A DNA stretch of 64,000 nt from Verrucomicrobiia bacterium (GTDB taxonomy: Bacteria; Verrucomicrobiota; Verrucomicrobiia; Limisphaerales; JADLHS01): assembly GCA_011525685.1 (NCBI GenBank), contig WYBW01000137.1, positions 1 through 64,000 on the forward strand, given 5' to 3'. The first letter of the stretch is position 1; each line of letters starts with the position of its first letter. Below, piece by piece: positions 26,496 through 38,674 of the stretch. A program made the translations under genes and the position numbers. Below the pieces are notes generated by a model. It made no database searches. It was not told where the DNA came from and saw only the letters and a list, made by a program, of their open reading frames with translations.

Positions 26496-29400
26496 TTACT
26501 GCGACGGCGTCACCACCCGATAATAGCGTTGGGGCGCTTGCGACGGAGTGGAATCAATAAACTCGCCGATGCCATTGGCCGGCGACGGCGGGAAGTCTTG
26601 CAGATTTGTCCACGAACTTCCCGCCACGTCACCTCGCCGCTGAAGCGTGTAGGAGCGTCCGGCCACCGTTTGGAATCGAAGGTGGATGCCTTCCGGCGTC
26701 TCGAGTACGATCAGTTTCAGCACGCTGGCGGGATCGTTGGGATTGGTGCCGGCGAGGTACTCGTGCAGGTTGGACGCCCCGTCCTCGTCGGCGTCCAGTG
26801 CCGCGTCCGCCGGGTCGTCCGGATTCAAGTGATGCCCGATCTCCCAGGCGTCGGGCATCCCGTCGCCGTCACGATCCGAAACTGGAGGCAGCCCGGCGGT
26901 GGGAGTTCCCGCGAACCAATTGGCGGGATTGTTACCGCTGCCGTTGATGGCATGGCGCTGGAGCGAGTGGCCGCCGCCATTGGCCGAGGCGGACCAGGGA
27001 ATCTGATTACCGTAAATCACCTCGTCCACGATCACCCAGGAAAATGAGCCTCCCGGGACATCGGGCGCTTGGGGCCGCTCCAAGGCGACGCGGTCGCTGC
27101 GGTTGCCCAGTCTTCCGGAATACGGGCCATAGACGGGCACTGCCGCGTTCGTCACCGAGTAGCGGGAGCGGAAGTTGTTCAGCGCCGTGCTGTCGGCCGG
27201 GTTGAAACTCACCACCAGCGCCAGGCCGCCCGCAGCGAGCGATTGGCCCGGCGGAAAGGTGAAACCGATGCCGCCATCCATGCGCCAGGCGCCCTCCGCC
27301 GTGAACAGGTTCACGGTGTTGGTGGTGGGATTGAACAACTCGAAGAACTCATCCTCTGTATTGTCGTTAGTTCCAATGTCCGGCGGACGATACATCACCT
27401 CGCTGATGATCACGCGCGGAGTGGGCGGCAGATTCGTGCCATCGCGCGTCCGGAGCAACGTGAACCAGTCTCCGTTCCCGTCCGGGTAGCGCCCCAGCGA
27501 AACATCGTTTTCCTGGCCCTTGAATTGGATCGCATCCACGACCCGATCGTCGCCTCCGCCGGGCAGGTAGGACAGGAGGACCTGCTCGCCGCCCTTGTCC
27601 AGACCGAAGCCGGTGGTGATGGGATTGTGAAAACCGGTCACTTCGTCGAAGCTGACCCAACCATGCGGCAGCACAGCCACCGCCGGTATTGCCCATTTGC
27701 GCAGGTCGCTACGACTGTCGCTGAGAAACCAACCGTCGAGAGAGACGCCGGCGTCGGCGAGGTTGTAAAGCTCGATCCAATCGTTGGAGTCGTACTCCGG
27801 TTTGGCGGGGTTGGAATAATCGGTGTGCGCCGCGATTTCGTTCAAAACAACCGAAGGCAGCGGCGGCAGCGGGTCGGGCCCGCCTGGCGAACCACCGATG
27901 TGGGTGCTGGCCCGCCAGTTGCCGGGATAATCCAGCGCCCCCGAAGCCTGGCCGTCCACGGCTCGATCCAGAGGCACCAGCGAGTGGCCCGGGCCATCCG
28001 CCGCGATGGGCCAGCCGCGCCCATCGCTGTAGTCAAACGAGAAGATCTCCGAGCCGCCCGCGCCCGTCTTGAGCGCGAGCTTTTCGCCGTCGTTCGCAAG
28101 GCTGCCGGAAAACGGACCAGCCAGTGGCACCTCGGGCGCCAAGCCATAATGCGCGCGAAACGCCGCGAAGTCGGTCTTCACCACCAGCAAATAACCTTCC
28201 GGCGGCATGGTCGCTCCGGGTGGGAACGTAAGATCAATTCCCGCGGTGAAATTCACACCCTCCAGGTCGAGAGTCAGATCGGTGCTGCGGTTGTGGAGTT
28301 CTACGTACTCAAAGTCGTTTCCACCCGCCGGATTATACATCACTTCCGAAACGCGCAAATTCGCCAGCACGGCGGCGGCCTGGTCCGGCTCCGAGGTGAT
28401 GAACTGGATCGGGGCGGACCAGTTGCTCCAGCGGCCGGTGGCATCCATCATCTTCACGCGGACGCGATACGCCCGCCCCACCTTGACCACACTGGAGGGA
28501 ATCGTGAGGTCGCTGTTGAAGTTGGTCAGTTCCGGACTTTCCCACACGGCAGTGATTTCGTAAGGCCGCGGCGCGTTCGGATTGAAGGCCGGCGCGTTGG
28601 TGTCGGCGACCTCGCCGATGCGCCACTTCATGGCGGCAAACGGCTGGCTGCCGCTGTAATTCGAACAGCGGAAGCTCAACCGGTTGATTGGATAATTGGA
28701 CGCGCCGATGTAAGTGAGCGTCGGGGTCAGCGGGACCGCATCCGCCGCGATGCTGTTCAGCAAGGCGCTCCGGGTGGCCACATAGTTCTTCATCAATTGA
28801 ATACAGCCGTTGAAATCCTTGGTGACCGTCGGTTCGTTGGGCCACTGGTAGAAGCGGCCGTGTCCGGCCTTGCCCAACGACGAACTGTAGGCGGAGTCAA
28901 TCATCTTGGGGTTGTAGTCCCACATGCAACGGTCGGCATCGAGGATGGTGGGCGCATTGGTGGGTCCGCGAAGCCGCGAGGCGTACTCATCAATCAACTG
29001 CCAGGCCTGGTCGGTGTTGAACAGCAGATCGCGCACTTCCCGGACGCGATTCTTATACGCAATGGTCAGCGCTGGTTTGGCCGGATAGCTCCCGCCACCA
29101 AAGACGGGCAGGTACAGGTCGTCCCGGCCACCGCAACCGGAATCGAACATGTTGTCCGCCCATGTCAGGTCCAGGTCCCAGGTGTGGACCGACCAGAGGC
29201 CGGTTTGCGGGTTGCGATAGTAAAAGTAGTTCTTGCCGTAGCAGATGTCGTAGTGATGGATGCCTTGCACGATGGCTTGGTAGCTCCAGTAATTGAACAG
29301 GTTCAAGTTGGTCCGCCACCATGCATCCGGAGGCGGTGCCGCGGTGCTGCGGTAGGTGTTGAGAAAGTAGTTCAAGTCGGATTTGTCGGTTGGCCCCAGT

Positions 29401-31646
29401 GGCCCCAGGTTGTTCAGTTCGCCGGTGCCTCCCTCCATCTTGTAGAGGTTGCCGTCAGGCAGGCCGTGTTCGTCCAGGAAGCGGCCATCCTCCTGCTCGA
29501 TTGCCAGATACACCCCCCAGAAATCGCCCTCGTATTGGGTGGTGGGATTCGTCTCGGCGGCGCTATGGATCACCCGGTATTGCAGGAAGGTGGTGTTGGG
29601 TGACTCGACCCCGGCCAGATTGAACAACCGGAAACCGACCGACTCGAACATGCCTTGTTCGCCGCGATGCCCGTAATCGCCCTGTTGAATGGAGGCTCCA
29701 AGATTCAGCTTGCGCCATGTCGTGCCGAACTTTCGGCCATAATCATCGCGCATCTCCAAGTCGTGCCCGCGGTTGAAGTCAAACTTCCACATGTTCTTGA
29801 CCATGGCGTAGCGCCACACGCCGCCGCGGGCGCGATAGCGAATGTGGTCGTACACCTTCCCGTCATAGACCAGTGCGCCCTGCCACAGATAGCCGTCGCC
29901 GGTATAACGACTGAACCAGGTGGCATTGACCACGGCGTTGCTCTTGGCAATGAGATGCACCACCGGGAGCCGGCCCATGACGTTGGTGTCAAAGTTCAAC
30001 ACGGGCGTCACCCCCGGCCGCACCGCCCCCTGCCAGGCGGGAACTCCATCGTAACAGAACAAGGCGAAATTCGGCTGCGGATCATCGGGATACGGCACCA
30101 GCACGTTCAGGCCAATCCCATCCGTGGCGCTGATCCGATAGCGCACCAGCCGGCGGTGGGTCATCAGCGAACCGGGCAGCACCACCGTGTAAATGCTGTC
30201 GCCCGCCAGGGCATCGCCATTGATCCCGGAATCGTTCATGAGCACGGTCGTCCAGTTGTTGGTGTACGCCGCGTCGGTCAACTCGATGTAATTACCCGGG
30301 TCCACGAATTGATACCGGAGGCTGACCGCGGCGACGCCCTCGGGATCGGTGATCTTGGCCGTGATGGTGACCGATTCGCCCGACCGGGGCTGCTTGGGAG
30401 CGTGACTCACCTGCCGGATGGCCGGGGGCAGGTTGGTGGCAAAGACGGAATTAAGCGCGCCGGGCGTCGGGCCACGAGCCGCCGGCCCGAAAGCGGCCAG
30501 CAGGCGGGCATCGAAGAAGAAGTCGCTGCTGCTGCTGAGGCTGGAATTGGCGGCCTGCACGGCGATGATGTTCGTGCCGTTCACGAGATAGCTTTGCGGC
30601 CAGTTCAAATTGAAGGTGTTGTAAGTGAGGTCCTCGCGCGCCGTGCCCGCTGTGCCGGTGTACGGCACCTCGCCCGTGGACATGTTCGCGTTCAGCACGT
30701 TCGTACCGTTGATCCAGACCTTGAAGCCGTCGTCATAAACTGCCGCAAGCGTCAGTCCGGTGATCTGACCCACGTTTGTCACCACGAAGGTTTTGCGGAA
30801 GAACACGGTGGAGTATGTTCCCTGCATGTCGCCCAAGGTCGTGCCCAGGAAGCTCGCGCTCTCGCCATAGCCAATCGGGCCCGTGCCGCTCAACCAGCCG
30901 GCGTCAGAAAAATTCAAGGCCCGCCAGGCGGACGTGGGATTGGAAGCTTCGGACAATCCCTTGAAATACTTCCAGGTCGAGCGCTCGGGGATGAGCGTGA
31001 GCGTGCCTTGAAGGGGATTGCCCGCCACGGAAGCCCGCCAACTGCCCCCGAGGTCGTTGTCGAAGCCGGGGTTGACCAGTTCCATGGAATAGCCTGGCGC
31101 ATCGCCCACCGTGGGCCAGGGAAAGCCGAGTTGATAATCCACCTGATCGGCCACGTTTCCAGCCGCGTCGCGCAGCACGATTCTTTCGCCGTCGTTGGCG
31201 AGCCGGCCCGTCCACGGTCCAAGAGCGCTTACGCCAAATTTCGCCTGGAGCGCCACCGGGTCCTGCGCCACGACCAGATAGTCGCCCGCCGGGATTTGCG
31301 CTCCCGGTGGGAAATCATAGGTGACGCCTTCCGAGAACCGCCAACCGGTCAAGTCCACCGACTGATTGCCGGAGTTGAACAGTTCGATGAACTCGACCAG
31401 TTCGGTCTTAACGTCCGGATCGTAATGGATTTCGTTGATGACGATCTCGGCCCGCGCTGCGGGGAGCAACAACCCGAGACATAGCAGGGCGGCGAAGCCC
31501 TTTTGTAAACCGCTGGTGACACAGGCTTGAAGCCCGTTGGCATGGTGTCCTACATGTGGAGCGACCGCGCGTCCATCACCGGCATACGCCGGTCGTTCAT
31601 TCTTGTTTATGGCATCACCGCCTTGGAACCGCCTGGCTCTTGTCAT
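26496..31646 (-). CDS. Giant secreted protein with lamin-tail and CotH-kinase domains
   Basis: A 1716-residue secreted protein. A hydrophobic segment (FAALLCLGLLLPAARA) lies about 50 residues from the ATG at 31646, so the signal has an unusually long n-region or the true start is later. The first lamin-tail domain begins at the mature end (IVINEIHYDPDVKTELVEFIELFN, about residue 65). A CotH-like kinase domain occupies about 555-840, including YEGDFWGVYLAIEQEDGRF and HTWDLDLTWADN, where CotH family members phosphorylate proteins. Three more lamin-tail blocks begin near 1095, 1267 and 1410 (LRVSEVMYNP, VVLNEIAAHT, VIISEVMYRP). The C-terminus has calcium-type Asp repeats (DRDGDGMPDAWE) and the end typical of Verrucomicrobia secreted proteins. 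Likely surface or extracellular. Confidence 0.86.
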   Translation of the reverse strand: MTRARRFQGGDAINKNERPAYAGDGRAVAPHVGHHANGLQACVTSGLQKGFAALLCLGLLLPAARAEIVINEIHYDPDVKTELVEFIELFNSGNQSVDLTGWRFSEGVTYDFPPGAQIPAGDYLVVAQDPVALQAKFGVSALGPWTGRLANDGERIVLRDAAGNVADQVDYQLGFPWPTVGDAPGYSMELVNPGFDNDLGGSWRASVAGNPLQGTLTLIPERSTWKYFKGLSEASNPTSAWRALNFSDAGWLSGTGPIGYGESASFLGTTLGDMQGTYSTVFFRKTFVVTNVGQITGLTLAAVYDDGFKVWINGTNVLNANMSTGEVPYTGTAGTAREDLTYNTFNLNWPQSYLVNGTNIIAVQAANSSLSSSSDFFFDARLLAAFGPAARGPTPGALNSVFATNLPPAIRQVSHAPKQPRSGESVTITAKITDPEGVAAVSLRYQFVDPGNYIELTDAAYTNNWTTVLMNDSGINGDALAGDSIYTVVLPGSLMTHRRLVRYRISATDGIGLNVLVPYPDDPQPNFALFCYDGVPAWQGAVRPGVTPVLNFDTNVMGRLPVVHLIAKSNAVVNATWFSRYTGDGYLWQGALVYDGKVYDHIRYRARGGVWRYAMVKNMWKFDFNRGHDLEMRDDYGRKFGTTWRKLNLGASIQQGDYGHRGEQGMFESVGFRLFNLAGVESPNTTFLQYRVIHSAAETNPTTQYEGDFWGVYLAIEQEDGRFLDEHGLPDGNLYKMEGGTGELNNLGPLGPTDKSDLNYFLNTYRSTAAPPPDAWWRTNLNLFNYWSYQAIVQGIHHYDICYGKNYFYYRNPQTGLWSVHTWDLDLTWADNMFDSGCGGRDDLYLPVFGGGSYPAKPALTIAYKNRVREVRDLLFNTDQAWQLIDEYASRLRGPTNAPTILDADRCMWDYNPKMIDSAYSSSLGKAGHGRFYQWPNEPTVTKDFNGCIQLMKNYVATRSALLNSIAADAVPLTPTLTYIGASNYPINRLSFRCSNYSGSQPFAAMKWRIGEVADTNAPAFNPNAPRPYEITAVWESPELTNFNSDLTIPSSVVKVGRAYRVRVKMMDATGRWSNWSAPIQFITSEPDQAAAVLANLRVSEVMYNPAGGNDFEYVELHNRSTDLTLDLEGVNFTAGIDLTFPPGATMPPEGYLLVVKTDFAAFRAHYGLAPEVPLAGPFSGSLANDGEKLALKTGAGGSEIFSFDYSDGRGWPIAADGPGHSLVPLDRAVDGQASGALDYPGNWRASTHIGGSPGGPDPLPPLPSVVLNEIAAHTDYSNPAKPEYDSNDWIELYNLADAGVSLDGWFLSDSRSDLRKWAIPAVAVLPHGWVSFDEVTGFHNPITTGFGLDKGGEQVLLSYLPGGGDDRVVDAIQFKGQENDVSLGRYPDGNGDWFTLLRTRDGTNLPPTPRVIISEVMYRPPDIGTNDNTEDEFFELFNPTTNTVNLFTAEGAWRMDGGIGFTFPPGQSLAAGGLALVVSFNPADSTALNNFRSRYSVTNAAVPVYGPYSGRLGNRSDRVALERPQAPDVPGGSFSWVIVDEVIYGNQIPWSASANGGGHSLQRHAINGSGNNPANWFAGTPTAGLPPVSDRDGDGMPDAWEIGHHLNPDDPADAALDADEDGASNLHEYLAGTNPNDPASVLKLIVLETPEGIHLRFQTVAGRSYTLQRRGDVAGSSWTNLQDFPPSPANGIGEFIDSTPSQAPQRYYRVVTPSQ

Positions 31647-31724: not shown

Positions 31725-34700
31725 CTACTTCACAATAACTTGATAGAACTTCCGCGGGGCGGTGGGCGCGATGATGTAGGGTGAGGCCACGTTGTTGGTC
31801 GTATAAGGACCGGTCACTTCGTTGGCTTCCAACAGCGTGCCCCGCGGCCACGTCAACACCACGTTGTCCCCGACTCGCTGGACAGCCAGACTCACGGCTG
31901 GCACACCCGCATAGAGGCTTTGGATGTCACTGGCGGATAGCGCGTAGGGATAGATTGCCACCTCGTCAATGATGCCGTTGAAAGTGCGAGCATCACTGTT
32001 GGGATCGCCGCCTATGCGGATGGTGTCCGAGAAGGGCCGGGCCGCGTGGGCGAACACGTTGACCGCACTCTGCGATCCGTTTGCGTTCTTGAGATAAATG
32101 GTGGCTTGGGCAGGCTCGACCACCAATGCCACGAACGACCATTGGCTCAACGGGACATTCAGCCCGGAATCCCAATTGTAAGTGGCCGCTGCGTCCAGCC
32201 AGTGGTAATTCAGGTTGCCCGTGCCGATGAAATTCAAGCCGGTGGCTGGCTGGCCGGCCCGCGCGAAGACAATTCCGGCGCGGTCAACGTGCGCGAAAGG
32301 ATTTATCCAGGCCGTGATCGTCAAAGCGTTGGTCGTCAGTCCCAAGGCCGGAACCGTGACAAACGAATTGGGGACGCCCGGGGTGGTTTGGACGGCGGTG
32401 TTCGAGCTCTCGAAGACGCTGAACCCGTCCGCGGGCCGAGGGCCGGCGATGCTGTTGAAACCGTTTTGCGAAGCAACGCCATAAGTGCCGGCCAGACTCC
32501 CGTAGAAGTCGAAAGCCGGCGCGGTGCCGGTCGAGGGGTCCTGCTGTTCGTTGAGCCGCCAATAGGCGACGGGATTGTAGCTAACCGCGACGCTTTCGTA
32601 ATCCGACGTCGGCAGGACCACCGTCAACACCGCCACGCTGCTCGTCACTGAGCCACCGGCGTTGCTGACGATGACATCGTAGTCACCATCATCGGCGGCC
32701 GTGACCGCCGTCAGACTGACCGCCAGAGTGTTGGCCCCGGCAACATTGCCGCCGTCCGCAAGATTCACTCCATCTTTTCGCCACTGATATTGGATCGGCT
32801 CCGTGCCGACGGCAGTGATGGCGAACCGCGCGTTGCGGCCGGGATACACGGCGGTTGAAACTGGCTGGGACGAAATCGCCGGCGGCAGCACGCCGCCCAC
32901 TTGGGCGGCGCCGTACAGGCTGGCCACTTCGCTGGCGCTCAAAGCGCGATCGAAGATGGCGACGTCATCAATCTCGCCGACAAAGTGGTTGCCGGTCCCG
33001 TCCAGAATGCCGCCACCGCCGATGCGGAATGGGAAGGCCGAACTGCCGTAGTTGGTGGTAGCGGCATTGACCGTGGCCTGCATCGCCAGATTGGTGGAGA
33101 GCAGGTAAAGGCTGAGGCTGGAACCGTTGCCAGAAGCGGCCACGAAATACCATTGGCCGGGGTTGATCATGTTCTGGCCCTGGCCCGCGAAGGAAGCGAA
33201 CCCGCCGCCCGGCGTCCAGATGCCCAAGTCCGCGCCATGGAAACCGAACTCGGCCACGTCGTTCTGGCCGAACAAGCCTGCACGCGCCGGTTGGGTGATC
33301 GGGGAATTGAACCAGCCCACAATCGCGAACTGGGCACGGTTGTTCATGTAGCTGACACCGGTTTCGGTGGCCGTGCTGAAGCCGTCATAAGAGGCGGCCG
33401 CGTTGGCAGGCTCGAAACCCGTGAAGTCCGGTGGGCGCGGACCGGCCACTCCGACCGTGGTGAAGGTGTGGTTGGCGATGTTGCCACCCCAGTAATCGTG
33501 GGCGACCGTTTCGCTGGTTTCATCCAGTCGCCAGTAGGCAATCGGGTTGGCGGCACGCAACGCGGCCTCGTAAGGCGAAAGCGTGGGATTGTCCGCCACG
33601 ACGGTCAGCGTGACTGTGTCACTGGTGGCCGGGATGCCCGCCACGTTGTTGAGCACGACGTCATAGTTGCCGGCGTCGCCAAAGGCAACCTCGGTGAGGA
33701 CGAGGTTCGGGCTGTTGGCGCCCGAAATCCGGCCGCCGTTGACGAGGTTGCCGCCGTTCCTGCGCCACTGGTAGGACAAGGGTTGGTCCCCCGCGCCCGC
33801 GACGCTGAACCTCGCCGTGCGTCCTTCGTAGAGCGCCTGTGAGACCGGTTGGCGCGACACGCTCGCCGGGATCAGGCCGACATTCAGCCCTTTCTTGTAA
33901 TAGAGGTAGAGTTCCTGGTCGGAGAACGCCCGGTTGAACACCGCCACTTCGTCAATCGTGCCGTTGAAGGCGCGATCCTGTGGGAGCGTGGTGGAACTTG
34001 GATCCACCCCAATCATCGTGAACCCCGAAAAGGCTACACTCACATGATCCACCGTGTTGGTCGCCGAGAACTGGCCGTTCTGGTTGTAGAGATAGATGAT
34101 GGCATTGGTGGGCGTAACCACCCAGGCCACGAAGGACCATTGGTTGAGCGTTGGGGACAAACCCGAAGAGAAATTGAACTGGCCGTTGTTCCAAGTGTAG
34201 CCGAGGAAATTGTTGGCGTTGTTGCCCCAGCCGAAGGTGTTCACGTCAGCGCCTCGGGCCGAGAGGATCGCGGTGTTGGCGGTCTGGTTGGCAATCGGAT
34301 AAATCCAGGCGCAAACCGTCACGGTGTTGGTGTTGAGGTTCAGCGGCGGAGCCACAACCCAGCTTATGTAGGAAGAAGGATAGAGAATGGGGGTGGTGGT
34401 GTTGCGGATGGTCCGGAGCGCGTAGTTGTTGGCTTCGAAGCCGGGGAACTCCGCAGGCTGTGGTCCCACAGTGCCCAAGTAGCCGTTTTGGGCCAGAGGA
34501 CCGTAGATGCCGTTGAAGCCACCGGCAAAGTCGTAGGCGGGACTGTCGCCAAGAGAAGGATCAGCAGTTTCGTTCAACCGCCAGTACGCGACGGGGTTGT
34601 TGGTGAAGACCTTCTCGGCATAGCTGTCGCCGGCCGGGGTCAGCACGACGAGCGGCGCCACAGTGCTGGTCACGATGCCGCTGGCGTTGGACACCACGAC

Positions 34701-35675
34701 CGAATAATCACCTTGATCGGCCGCGCTCACTCCGGAAATGACCAGCGTGGAGGTGGTGGTCCCGGAGAGGTTGCCGCCGTCGGTCAGCGGCGTCGCTCCT
34801 TTGCGCCACTGGTAGGCGATCGGCAGCACCCCGGCCGCAGTCACGCGGAACGTGGCCCGTCCCCCGGCGAAGGTTTGGGAGCCAGCCAAGGGCGCGAGCG
34901 TGGCGCCAGCCGCCGTGGCGCGAGGAACAATCTGGATCGCATTGATCGGGACGCGCGTGTTGAATTCCGCGGTGCGGATGAGGAACGAGTCGGCCGACAG
35001 TCCTTTGATCACAGTGTAGTTACCGGAGCCGGCTACGCGGCCGTTCAGGGAAGTGGCGGGCACTTCCTGATAAACGGCATTGTTTTGGAAGTTATTGTAG
35101 TCCCGGAGAAACACGCGCGTCGTAAGGTCCGCGCCCACGGTCATGCTCTCCGCCGACCCGGAAGCGGCTTGAATCCAATACTCACCTGTGCGCCCGGCCT
35201 GGTTGTCGCCATCCGAGTAAATCACCACGTCATATTGACCCACACCCTCCGCCGTCAGCCACGCGCTCAAGCCCGAGAAATACAACAGCGGCCAGTTGCC
35301 GTTGGGAAACGCGTACAGGTTCGGGTCAACCGCCGTGTTGCCGTTGTTGTTCGAGTCGAGGTAACAATTCATCAAATTGCCGTCCGGTGAAAAAGCGGCT
35401 GCCGGATTGCCGCCGCCGAGAACACTCCAGTTGTTGGTCGCCGCCCAACTCACCGTGACAGTGGTGGCGGCCCCGGAACTGTTCACGAGCGCGATGTTCG
35501 TGCCCCGTCGCCCCAGGTTGTTCCAATTCGGCTGAACATAACCGGGCGCACCCGCTTCGTCGGCGGGCGCCAACGCATTGGCGGCACCGTTCGCAATGTT
35601 CTCGACGTCGGCGCCCGGGCCGCGGACAAAATTCAGTCCGATGGACGCGCCAAAAGCCAGGTTGGGCAGAAGCAA
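31725..35675 (-). CDS. Ig/LamG repeat surface protein, signal peptide interrupted
   Basis: A 1316-residue open frame from TTG 35675, but the natural gene almost certainly begins at ATG 35795 (see the next entry) and is cut by an in-frame TGA at 35691-35693. After a lead domain (about 1-255) come three repeats of an Ig-like domain (near 262-345, 605-700, 930-1020) and a LamG/concanavalin-type domain (near 350-590, 705-920, 1025-1270). Ig blocks share the phrase YQWRKxG or YQWRRNG; LamG blocks share NPVAYWRLNE or NPIAYWRLDE and IDEVAIF/IDDVAIF. It is a modular adhesin or carbohydrate-binding surface protein. It is followed by a strong terminator and by the lamin-tail/CotH gene. Confidence 0.82.
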   Translation of the reverse strand: MLLPNLAFGASIGLNFVRGPGADVENIANGAANALAPADEAGAPGYVQPNWNNLGRRGTNIALVNSSGAATTVTVSWAATNNWSVLGGGNPAAAFSPDGNLMNCYLDSNNNGNTAVDPNLYAFPNGNWPLLYFSGLSAWLTAEGVGQYDVVIYSDGDNQAGRTGEYWIQAASGSAESMTVGADLTTRVFLRDYNNFQNNAVYQEVPATSLNGRVAGSGNYTVIKGLSADSFLIRTAEFNTRVPINAIQIVPRATAAGATLAPLAGSQTFAGGRATFRVTAAGVLPIAYQWRKGATPLTDGGNLSGTTTSTLVISGVSAADQGDYSVVVSNASGIVTSTVAPLVVLTPAGDSYAEKVFTNNPVAYWRLNETADPSLGDSPAYDFAGGFNGIYGPLAQNGYLGTVGPQPAEFPGFEANNYALRTIRNTTTPILYPSSYISWVVAPPLNLNTNTVTVCAWIYPIANQTANTAILSARGADVNTFGWGNNANNFLGYTWNNGQFNFSSGLSPTLNQWSFVAWVVTPTNAIIYLYNQNGQFSATNTVDHVSVAFSGFTMIGVDPSSTTLPQDRAFNGTIDEVAVFNRAFSDQELYLYYKKGLNVGLIPASVSRQPVSQALYEGRTARFSVAGAGDQPLSYQWRRNGGNLVNGGRISGANSPNLVLTEVAFGDAGNYDVVLNNVAGIPATSDTVTLTVVADNPTLSPYEAALRAANPIAYWRLDETSETVAHDYWGGNIANHTFTTVGVAGPRPPDFTGFEPANAAASYDGFSTATETGVSYMNNRAQFAIVGWFNSPITQPARAGLFGQNDVAEFGFHGADLGIWTPGGGFASFAGQGQNMINPGQWYFVAASGNGSSLSLYLLSTNLAMQATVNAATTNYGSSAFPFRIGGGGILDGTGNHFVGEIDDVAIFDRALSASEVASLYGAAQVGGVLPPAISSQPVSTAVYPGRNARFAITAVGTEPIQYQWRKDGVNLADGGNVAGANTLAVSLTAVTAADDGDYDVIVSNAGGSVTSSVAVLTVVLPTSDYESVAVSYNPVAYWRLNEQQDPSTGTAPAFDFYGSLAGTYGVASQNGFNSIAGPRPADGFSVFESSNTAVQTTPGVPNSFVTVPALGLTTNALTITAWINPFAHVDRAGIVFARAGQPATGLNFIGTGNLNYHWLDAAATYNWDSGLNVPLSQWSFVALVVEPAQATIYLKNANGSQSAVNVFAHAARPFSDTIRIGGDPNSDARTFNGIIDEVAIYPYALSASDIQSLYAGVPAVSLAVQRVGDNVVLTWPRGTLLEANEVTGPYTTNNVASPYIIAPTAPRKFYQVIVK

Positions 35676-35690
35676 GGTGAGGCCGCCAAA

Positions 35691-35795
35691 TCACCCGAGC
35701 ACTCGGAGGGTTCTGGATACATTGACTGAGGCAAACAAGGCCGCAGGAATTTTCCCGCACGGCGACGGCAGGTGAGCAGCAGGTGATGGTTTCAT
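35691..35795 (-). pseudogene. N-terminal signal region of the Ig/LamG gene, with in-frame TGA
   Basis: From ATG 35795 the frame runs 34 codons (start MKPSPAAHL, end RTLRVLG), meets TGA at 35691-35693, and then continues in the same frame as FGGLTLLLPNLAFGAS into the 1316-residue frame. Together these form a normal-looking signal peptide with a hydrophobic core and an Ala-x-Ala-like cleavage site, broken only by the TGA. A single base change from TGG (Trp) would explain it. Possible causes are a sequencing error, a recent nonsense mutation or readthrough; these cannot be distinguished here. Confidence 0.65.
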
Positions 35796-36066
35796 AAACA
35801 GGGGCTGGAGTTGAGGTTTTGACGGTTTGAAACTTAACTGGGCGTCACGTCCACACTGATGGACAATCATTCACGGGGTTACGGATTGATGCTAAAATCC
35901 TGTGCCAACACCCCGAAAAGTAAAGAGGTTCTTGCCGGATTGTCACAGGGCTTGATCTCTCCCGCCGGGATGGATTTGGCAATCGGGCAGCAACCATCCA
36001 ACGAGCAGTGAGGCGGCAAACCTGTCCTCCCATCTGACCAAGTTGGCCGGTCAACCTGGCTGTGAT

Positions 36067-36771: not shown

Positions 36772-37027
36772 ACACAGGGATACTGGGTATTTCGCCCGGT
36801 CCCTTTCAATGCAATTCTGATTCCGGCCGGGAGCTGCTTAAGCGATCCGGGCGAAACCGCTGCGCGAGCGGATTTGCAATCGGGGGCTGCTTGCACCAGT
36901 CTTTCAGGGCAAACGCGCGCTTGAGTTCGCGACCGTTGGTCGGGTGCGGTTCACACGACCAGTCATCAACGAAGAGGGGCAAAGCCGGGATCTCGGAAAC
37001 TCCAAGCCGTTCGTTCGAGTTGTAAAC

Positions 37028-38674
37028 ATGAAAATGGCCTGGTGGTTTTCTGGTCTGGCAGTGGGGTTGGCGGTGCTCAGGCCGCCGGTCGCTCCCGCCA
37101 GCGGGAGCGAGGTGTTGGTGGTTTTCAATTCCGCCCTGCCGGAATCGAAAGCCGTGGCGGCGTATTACGCGGAGCGCCGCGGTGTTCCCGCCGGACAGGT
37201 GCTGGGCTTCGAATTAAGCCGCGAGGAAAGCGTCTCCCGCGCCGAATATCGCGACACACTCGAGCAACCACTGCTGAAAGAGTTGGAGGCCCGGTTCTGG
37301 CGTTTGGGGGACGCCGAAATCGCCGACACCAACGGGCGGCCTGTCAAGATCGAGCGGAAAGTGTTGGAATCCAAGATCCGCTACCTGGCGCTGTGCTACG
37401 GCGTGCCCTTGCGCATCCTCCCCGACTCAAATCTCAAGGAGCCCGCCGAGGACACCATGCGACCCGAGTTTCGTCGCAATGAGGCCGCTGTGGACAGTGA
37501 ATTGGCGGTGCTGCCTTTGACTCACCAGAAACTGCCGCTGGCCGGGCCGTTGCGCAATCACACCTACACCACCACCAACGCGGCCTGGCTGAGTCCCACC
37601 AATGGGGTGTTGATGGTGACGCGATTGGACGGGCCGACGCCCGAGATTGCCCGCGGACTGGTGGACAAGGCGATGCAGGCCGAAACCGAGGGTCTCTGGG
37701 GACGGGCTTACTTTGACTGGCGCAACGTCGCCGACCCCGCCATGAAACCGGGGGACGACTGGATTCGCACGGCCGCCGACATGGCGCGCCTTCTCGGATT
37801 TGAAACCATCACCAACGACCAGGAAGCGACGTTTCCCGCCAGTTTTCCCATGAGCCAGATCGCCTATTACCTGGGCTGGTATCGGCAGCATGTGGACGGA
37901 CCGTTCACCTTGCCGAACGTCGAATTCATGCCCGGCGCGTTCGCGTATCACCTGCACTCCTTCAGTGCGGCGACCTTGCGCTCCACGAGCAACCACTGGG
38001 CCGGGCCGCTGCTGGCGAAGGGTGCCACCGCCACCATGGGCTGCGTGCATGAGCCTTACCTCGGCGGCACGCCGGACCTGGGCGTGTTCACCGCGCGATT
38101 GTTGTTCCACAACTTCACGTTCGGAGAAGCCGCCTACGCCAGCCAGAATGTCTTGTCCTGGATGACCACGGTGGTGGGTGACCCGCTTTACCGTCCCGGC
38201 GCCAAACCGCCGCCGCGCTTGCACATCGAGCTGGAGGCGAAACAGAACAAGCTGGTCGAATGGTCGCACCTGCGCGTGGTGAATCTGAATCAGTCCCGCG
38301 GAGCCTCGCTGGCGGAGATGATCAGCTATCTCGAACAAATCCCGATTACGAAGCAAAGCGCGGTGTTGAGCGAGAAGCTCGGCGACCTTTGCGCCGCTCA
38401 GGGGAAACCCGCCTCCGCCGTCCACGCTTACGAGCGGGCGCTCAAGCTCGATCCTTCGCCACAACAGCGCATCCGGCTGCGGCTCACGCTGGGGGAACGA
38501 TTGCTCGCGTTGAACCGCCACGCGGAGGCCGCAGCGAACTACGAGAAGCTACTCGAGGAATCACCGGATTACGCGGGCAAGGATTCGGTTCAGGTGAAGC
38601 TTCAAGAGTTGAAAGGCAAACTCGGCCCGTCGCCAGAAGCGACGCCAGCCGGAGAGGCAAGGTCCGCACGGTAA
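37028..38674 (+). CDS. TIGR03790-type secreted protein with a C-terminal TPR-like region
   Basis: A 548-residue protein beginning with a signal peptide (MKMAWWFSGLAVGLAV). The body has features I associate with the TIGR03790 family: EVLVVFNSALPESKAVAAYYAERR near the start, then RYLALCYGVPLRI, then SNHWAGPLLAKGATATMGCVHEPYLGG. This group is found in Verrucomicrobia, Planctomycetes and related lineages and has no established function. A TPR-like helical tail follows (LGDLCAAQGKPASAVHAYERALKLDPS, then RHAEAAANYEKLLEE), suggesting protein-protein interaction outside the cytoplasm. ATG 37028 is chosen over an upstream in-frame start because it begins the signal peptide. Confidence 0.82.
   Translation: MKMAWWFSGLAVGLAVLRPPVAPASGSEVLVVFNSALPESKAVAAYYAERRGVPAGQVLGFELSREESVSRAEYRDTLEQPLLKELEARFWRLGDAEIADTNGRPVKIERKVLESKIRYLALCYGVPLRILPDSNLKEPAEDTMRPEFRRNEAAVDSELAVLPLTHQKLPLAGPLRNHTYTTTNAAWLSPTNGVLMVTRLDGPTPEIARGLVDKAMQAETEGLWGRAYFDWRNVADPAMKPGDDWIRTAADMARLLGFETITNDQEATFPASFPMSQIAYYLGWYRQHVDGPFTLPNVEFMPGAFAYHLHSFSAATLRSTSNHWAGPLLAKGATATMGCVHEPYLGGTPDLGVFTARLLFHNFTFGEAAYASQNVLSWMTTVVGDPLYRPGAKPPPRLHIELEAKQNKLVEWSHLRVVNLNQSRGASLAEMISYLEQIPITKQSAVLSEKLGDLCAAQGKPASAVHAYERALKLDPSPQQRIRLRLTLGERLLALNRHAEAAANYEKLLEESPDYAGKDSVQVKLQELKGKLGPSPEATPAGEARSAR

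Follow-up and report, generated by a model that had tools for sequence, protein, structure and literature searches.

An in-frame TGA in the presumed signal peptide of an otherwise intact Ig/LamG exported-protein gene of a Verrucomicrobiia bacterium

In ordinary prokaryotic genomes, 1-5% of the gene-like sequences are pseudogenes (PMC522871), so one such case is expected in a genome of 6.7 Mb such as the one considered here. In-frame stops occur widely in conserved bacterial genes; they often seem to be tolerated, and many of them are short-lived (PMC7918605). Among systems in which UGA is read as sense, UGA reading by tRNA-Trp has been linked to a four-pair stem and to the changes A9C and G24A (PMC13092985). 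A search of the literature on Verrucomicrobia LamG/Ig surface proteins, and on stops in signal peptides, returned nothing specific. The gene described here lies in the window, a stretch of 64,000 nucleotides that is part of contig 120 of a draft genome (6.73 Mb, 199 contigs, 97.8% complete), which was sampled region by region.

According to the sequence and its translation, a reading frame on the minus strand begins at ATG 35795-35793, continues for 34 sense codons (35694..35795) and reaches a TGA at 35693-35691. The 34-codon leader holds the n-region and the start of the hydrophobic core of a presumed signal peptide. Directly behind the TGA, the ORF list gives a frame of 1321 codons without a stop, ended by the terminator at 31725-31727 (31725..35690 in all, minus strand). 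The product counts 1321 residues from the codon after the TGA and 1316 from TTG 35675 (35673..35675), the sole start codon in the stretch from the TGA to the mature protein. With the TGA masked, the N-terminus reads MKPSPAAHLPSPCGKIPAALFASVNVSRTLRVLG-X-FGGLTLLLPNLAFGA|SIGLNF, where FGGLTLLLPNLAFGA (35646..35690) is the rest of the signal peptide up to the likely cleavage site, as aligned with the signal peptides of relatives. The original prediction had placed a TGA in the signal-peptide frame of a 1316-residue Ig/LamG protein, and the bases are exactly as it described them. Three LamG domains (Pfam PF13385, Laminin_G_3, 1.1e-56; the best-scoring one at 31920..32369) and three Ig domains (Pfam PF07679, I-set, 1.2e-27; the best-scoring one at 32628..32882) are present in the product, and a complete signal peptide is obtained only by passing the TGA. 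One base upstream of the TGA lies a short inverted repeat, CCGAGTGCTCGG (35695-35706, minus strand), which is probably due to chance, and which could be a spot where sequencing errors arise.

The gene is flanked downstream by a 1716-residue LTD/CotH protein (26496-31646, minus strand), in which a start at the first ATG puts an unusually long n-region, of about 50 residues, ahead of the hydrophobic core; its start may be misplaced. On the plus strand, 36944-38674 encodes a protein of the TIGR03790 family (317 bits against a cut-off of 67), followed by TPR repeats.

Five full-length relatives were identified (L082-L086, from genomes G116, G115, G265, G113, and G256; 1367-1414 residues from stop to stop), which are 48-53% identical to the product and collinear with it over about 1300 residues, together with one incomplete copy. 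These relatives sit in families other than that of the present genome, within the same order. All six have an uninterrupted signal peptide of about 35-43 residues that starts with ATG and ends at the position equivalent to FGA|S, which makes the stop specific to this sequence. The comparison with relatives that the original prediction had proposed as a check thus found the stop missing in six of six.

Translation from TTG 35675 would give a charge-free stub of ten residues, MLLPNLAFGA, ahead of the cleavage site, which would be too short and too uncharged to serve as a signal peptide. The TGA is more than a stop that happens to precede a good start, because only this TTG intervenes and yields such a stub, and because all six close relatives have complete, ATG-started signal peptides. 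Inspection of around 30 further large proteins of this genome that share matching Ig/LamG stretches showed that most of them have an ordinary signal peptide and a plausible start. Together with the signal peptides of the relatives, this indicates that the gene needs the part before the TGA, and that the TGA interrupts it. It is most improbable that translation simply starts past the TGA, at TTG 35675, leaving the upstream frame irrelevant: this TTG is the first start codon past the stop and the coding signal sets in directly after the TGA, but such a start leaves a signal stub without positive charge where a full signal peptide is present in all six close relatives and in most Ig/LamG exported proteins of this genome.

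The gene is a single copy, with no intact second copy in the assembly; the next-best match is 41% identical over part of the protein. Apart from the present copy, the gene was not found in the genomes of the genus and the family, being missing in the other 11 family genomes, and the ancestral state at the stop site is known from other families alone. A scan of genome contigs found only distant Ig/LamG relatives, and the relatives that carry names point to Verrucomicrobiota. The distribution of the gene is patchy, as at least three other families of the order have it, which suggests loss or horizontal transfer. A possible second interrupted case in this genome, L125 (contig C60), was set aside, since the TGA before it sits at the edge of the contig and seems to terminate an earlier frame.

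The 34-codon leader is probably the original one, although this falls short of proof. Its frame is open for 59 codons back from the stop, to TGA 35871-35873; by a rough estimate, an open run of this length is expected about 15% of the time at this GC content, so the open frame is little evidence. Codon usage was compared with that of 23 signal peptides, from among the approximately 30 genes inspected in this genome. The leader has a codon score of -0.49 and a GC3 of 0.56, and its score is below those of all 23 (mean -0.08, sd 0.23); directly after the TGA, the values are +0.58 and 0.73. The whole read-through signal peptide scores -0.16, inside the range of the comparison set. Against the leaders of the six relatives, the leader reaches a summed score of 120 (shuffled mean 106), a weak likeness that is not significant (p 0.085). 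The other two leader frames scored 103 and 81, without a fitting signal peptide. The original prediction of one continuous signal peptide is therefore plausible, while its upstream half is unproven as the original leader.

These observations also bear on the reading that a larger change at the 5' end (a deletion, a rearrangement or older decay) removed the true leader, so that the TGA is only the first stop in unrelated DNA. We consider it unlikely. The sharp drop of codon score and GC3 at the TGA would fit such a change, as would a leader about ten residues longer than those of the relatives and only weakly like them, and no significant similarity to the relatives was found in the upstream DNA. 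However, the signal peptides of intact genes also score poorly in this genome, and the read-through peptide as a whole is not an outlier among them. Moreover, ATG-AAA is the usual start of the exported proteins of this genome, and the basic residues come before the hydrophobic core, as is proper.

The condition of the gene body was assessed separately. No further stop or frameshift was found in it. Over 1271 shared columns, its similarity to the outgroup L086 is 0.489, compared with 0.474-0.515 for the relatives; among the columns invariant in the other five, it keeps 340 of 415 (82%), while leave-one-out values for the others are 79-97%. The relaxed constraint expected of older pseudogenes was not observed. 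Judged by these comparisons, the body is not decaying and is as conserved as its relatives; therefore, a lesion, if real, is of recent date; otherwise, the gene is intact in the living organism.

We favour, with moderate confidence, an otherwise intact gene for a large, adhesion-like Ig/LamG exported protein in which one recent and real nonsense change has occurred in the signal peptide. A lone stop in a frame that is otherwise open for 1321 codons argues for this reading; against it, a consensus error would look identical in sequence alone, the ancestral state comes from other families, and the leader is not proven to be original. Such an error of one base, or a minority allele represented in the draft while the gene is intact in the organism, is a possible but clearly less probable explanation. 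The genome is an unfinished draft in 199 contigs, the body is intact and as conserved as a working gene would be, and one lone substitution is as compatible with an error as with a mutation. On the other hand, nothing points directly to poor sequence quality: homopolymers at the site do not exceed three bases, and the gene shows no break of frame elsewhere; likewise, neither a frame break nor an in-frame stop was found in any of the genome's 69 other Ig/LamG matches. A nonsense mutation and a sequencing error jointly provide the best account of the locus.

If the nonsense change is real in the organism, ribosomes starting at ATG 35795 would stop after 34 residues, and re-initiation at TTG 35675 would produce at best a protein without an export signal, so that export would be lost. 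The gene would then be a very young null allele of this strain, apart from trace product from ordinary leaky termination at UGA; this status would follow from the early stop at codon 35 and from a re-initiation product that lacks the export signal. The original prediction had listed a TGG-to-TGA mutation among its options. In the relatives, the aligned site lacks conservation, with basic, small, and aromatic residues all occurring nearby, and a loss of TGG in particular is consequently not supported.

Programmed readthrough, another of those options, and recoding are disfavoured by the evidence from tRNA, SelB, and RF2 and by the missing stop in every relative. The only tRNA-Sec match over the cut-off (Rfam) proved to be a tRNA-Ser with anticodon tga, which dismissed selenocysteine as a candidate, and SelB had matches only under its curated cut-off in this genome. 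RF2 is present, over its cut-off. ARAGORN named no TCA anticodon on the loci of 61 tRNA matches (it gave no call for one weak match, of 29.8 bits). The only tRNA-Trp found carries the anticodon CCA, a five-pair anticodon stem (with G-U as the top pair), A9, and G24, and is hence without the UGA-reading changes (PMC13092985). An RNA signal at the stop was considered and rejected, as the fold is not unusually stable (z +1.3 against shuffles).

Lower-scoring tRNA genes form clusters in two other regions, with 11 in L169 (contig C29, 24000-39162) and four in L173 (contig C76, 8000-10918). Among them are Leu tRNAs some 75 bases long. The clusters differ from the chromosomal set and resemble the tRNA arrays carried by a phage or another mobile element.

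Passage of the TGA by leaky UGA termination or by recoding, giving a low but useful amount of exported protein, is improbable in our opinion. Termination at UGA is leaky, the body is under constraint, and in-frame stops are often seemingly tolerated in conserved genes (PMC7918605); nevertheless, none of the relatives has the stop, neither tRNA-Sec, SelB over its cut-off nor a TCA anticodon was found, RF2 is present, the tRNA-Trp is ordinary, and the fold of the RNA at the stop is no better than that of shuffled sequence. That a tolerated leaky TGA sets a low export level of this large surface protein in this strain is more doubtful still. Phase-type switching, another suggestion of the original prediction, is unsupported. 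Inspection by eye around 35691 revealed no homopolymer or repeat tract over three bases and no other structure that could act as a switch, and the exchange of one base does not amount to switching.

The consequence of the favoured nonsense change, and equally of a consensus error, is mainly one of annotation: an entry that marks the gene as interrupted, or possibly as an assembly error, is preferable to one that calls it from TTG 35675 as if it encoded a normal protein of the cytoplasm. If the stop were real and read through, the locus would offer a minor instance of a surface protein controlled by a stop codon, although nothing here indicates so.

Compared with known systems, the closest counterparts of the gene are its full-length relatives L082-L086, which resemble it in length, in collinearity, and in the level of identity throughout, but differ in having signal peptides without interruption. 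UGA readthrough and recoding systems, such as selenocysteine insertion and UGA-reading tRNA-Trp (PMC13092985), share with this locus an in-frame TGA before conserved coding sequence; unlike in those systems, tRNA-Sec, SelB, a TCA anticodon, and a four-pair tRNA-Trp stem were not found in this genome, and the stop is unconserved. Prokaryotic single-stop pseudogenes (PMC522871; PMC7918605) likewise have one in-frame stop in a gene that is otherwise conserved, while the stop described here differs in lying at codon 35, within the signal peptide, and in being known from one assembly.
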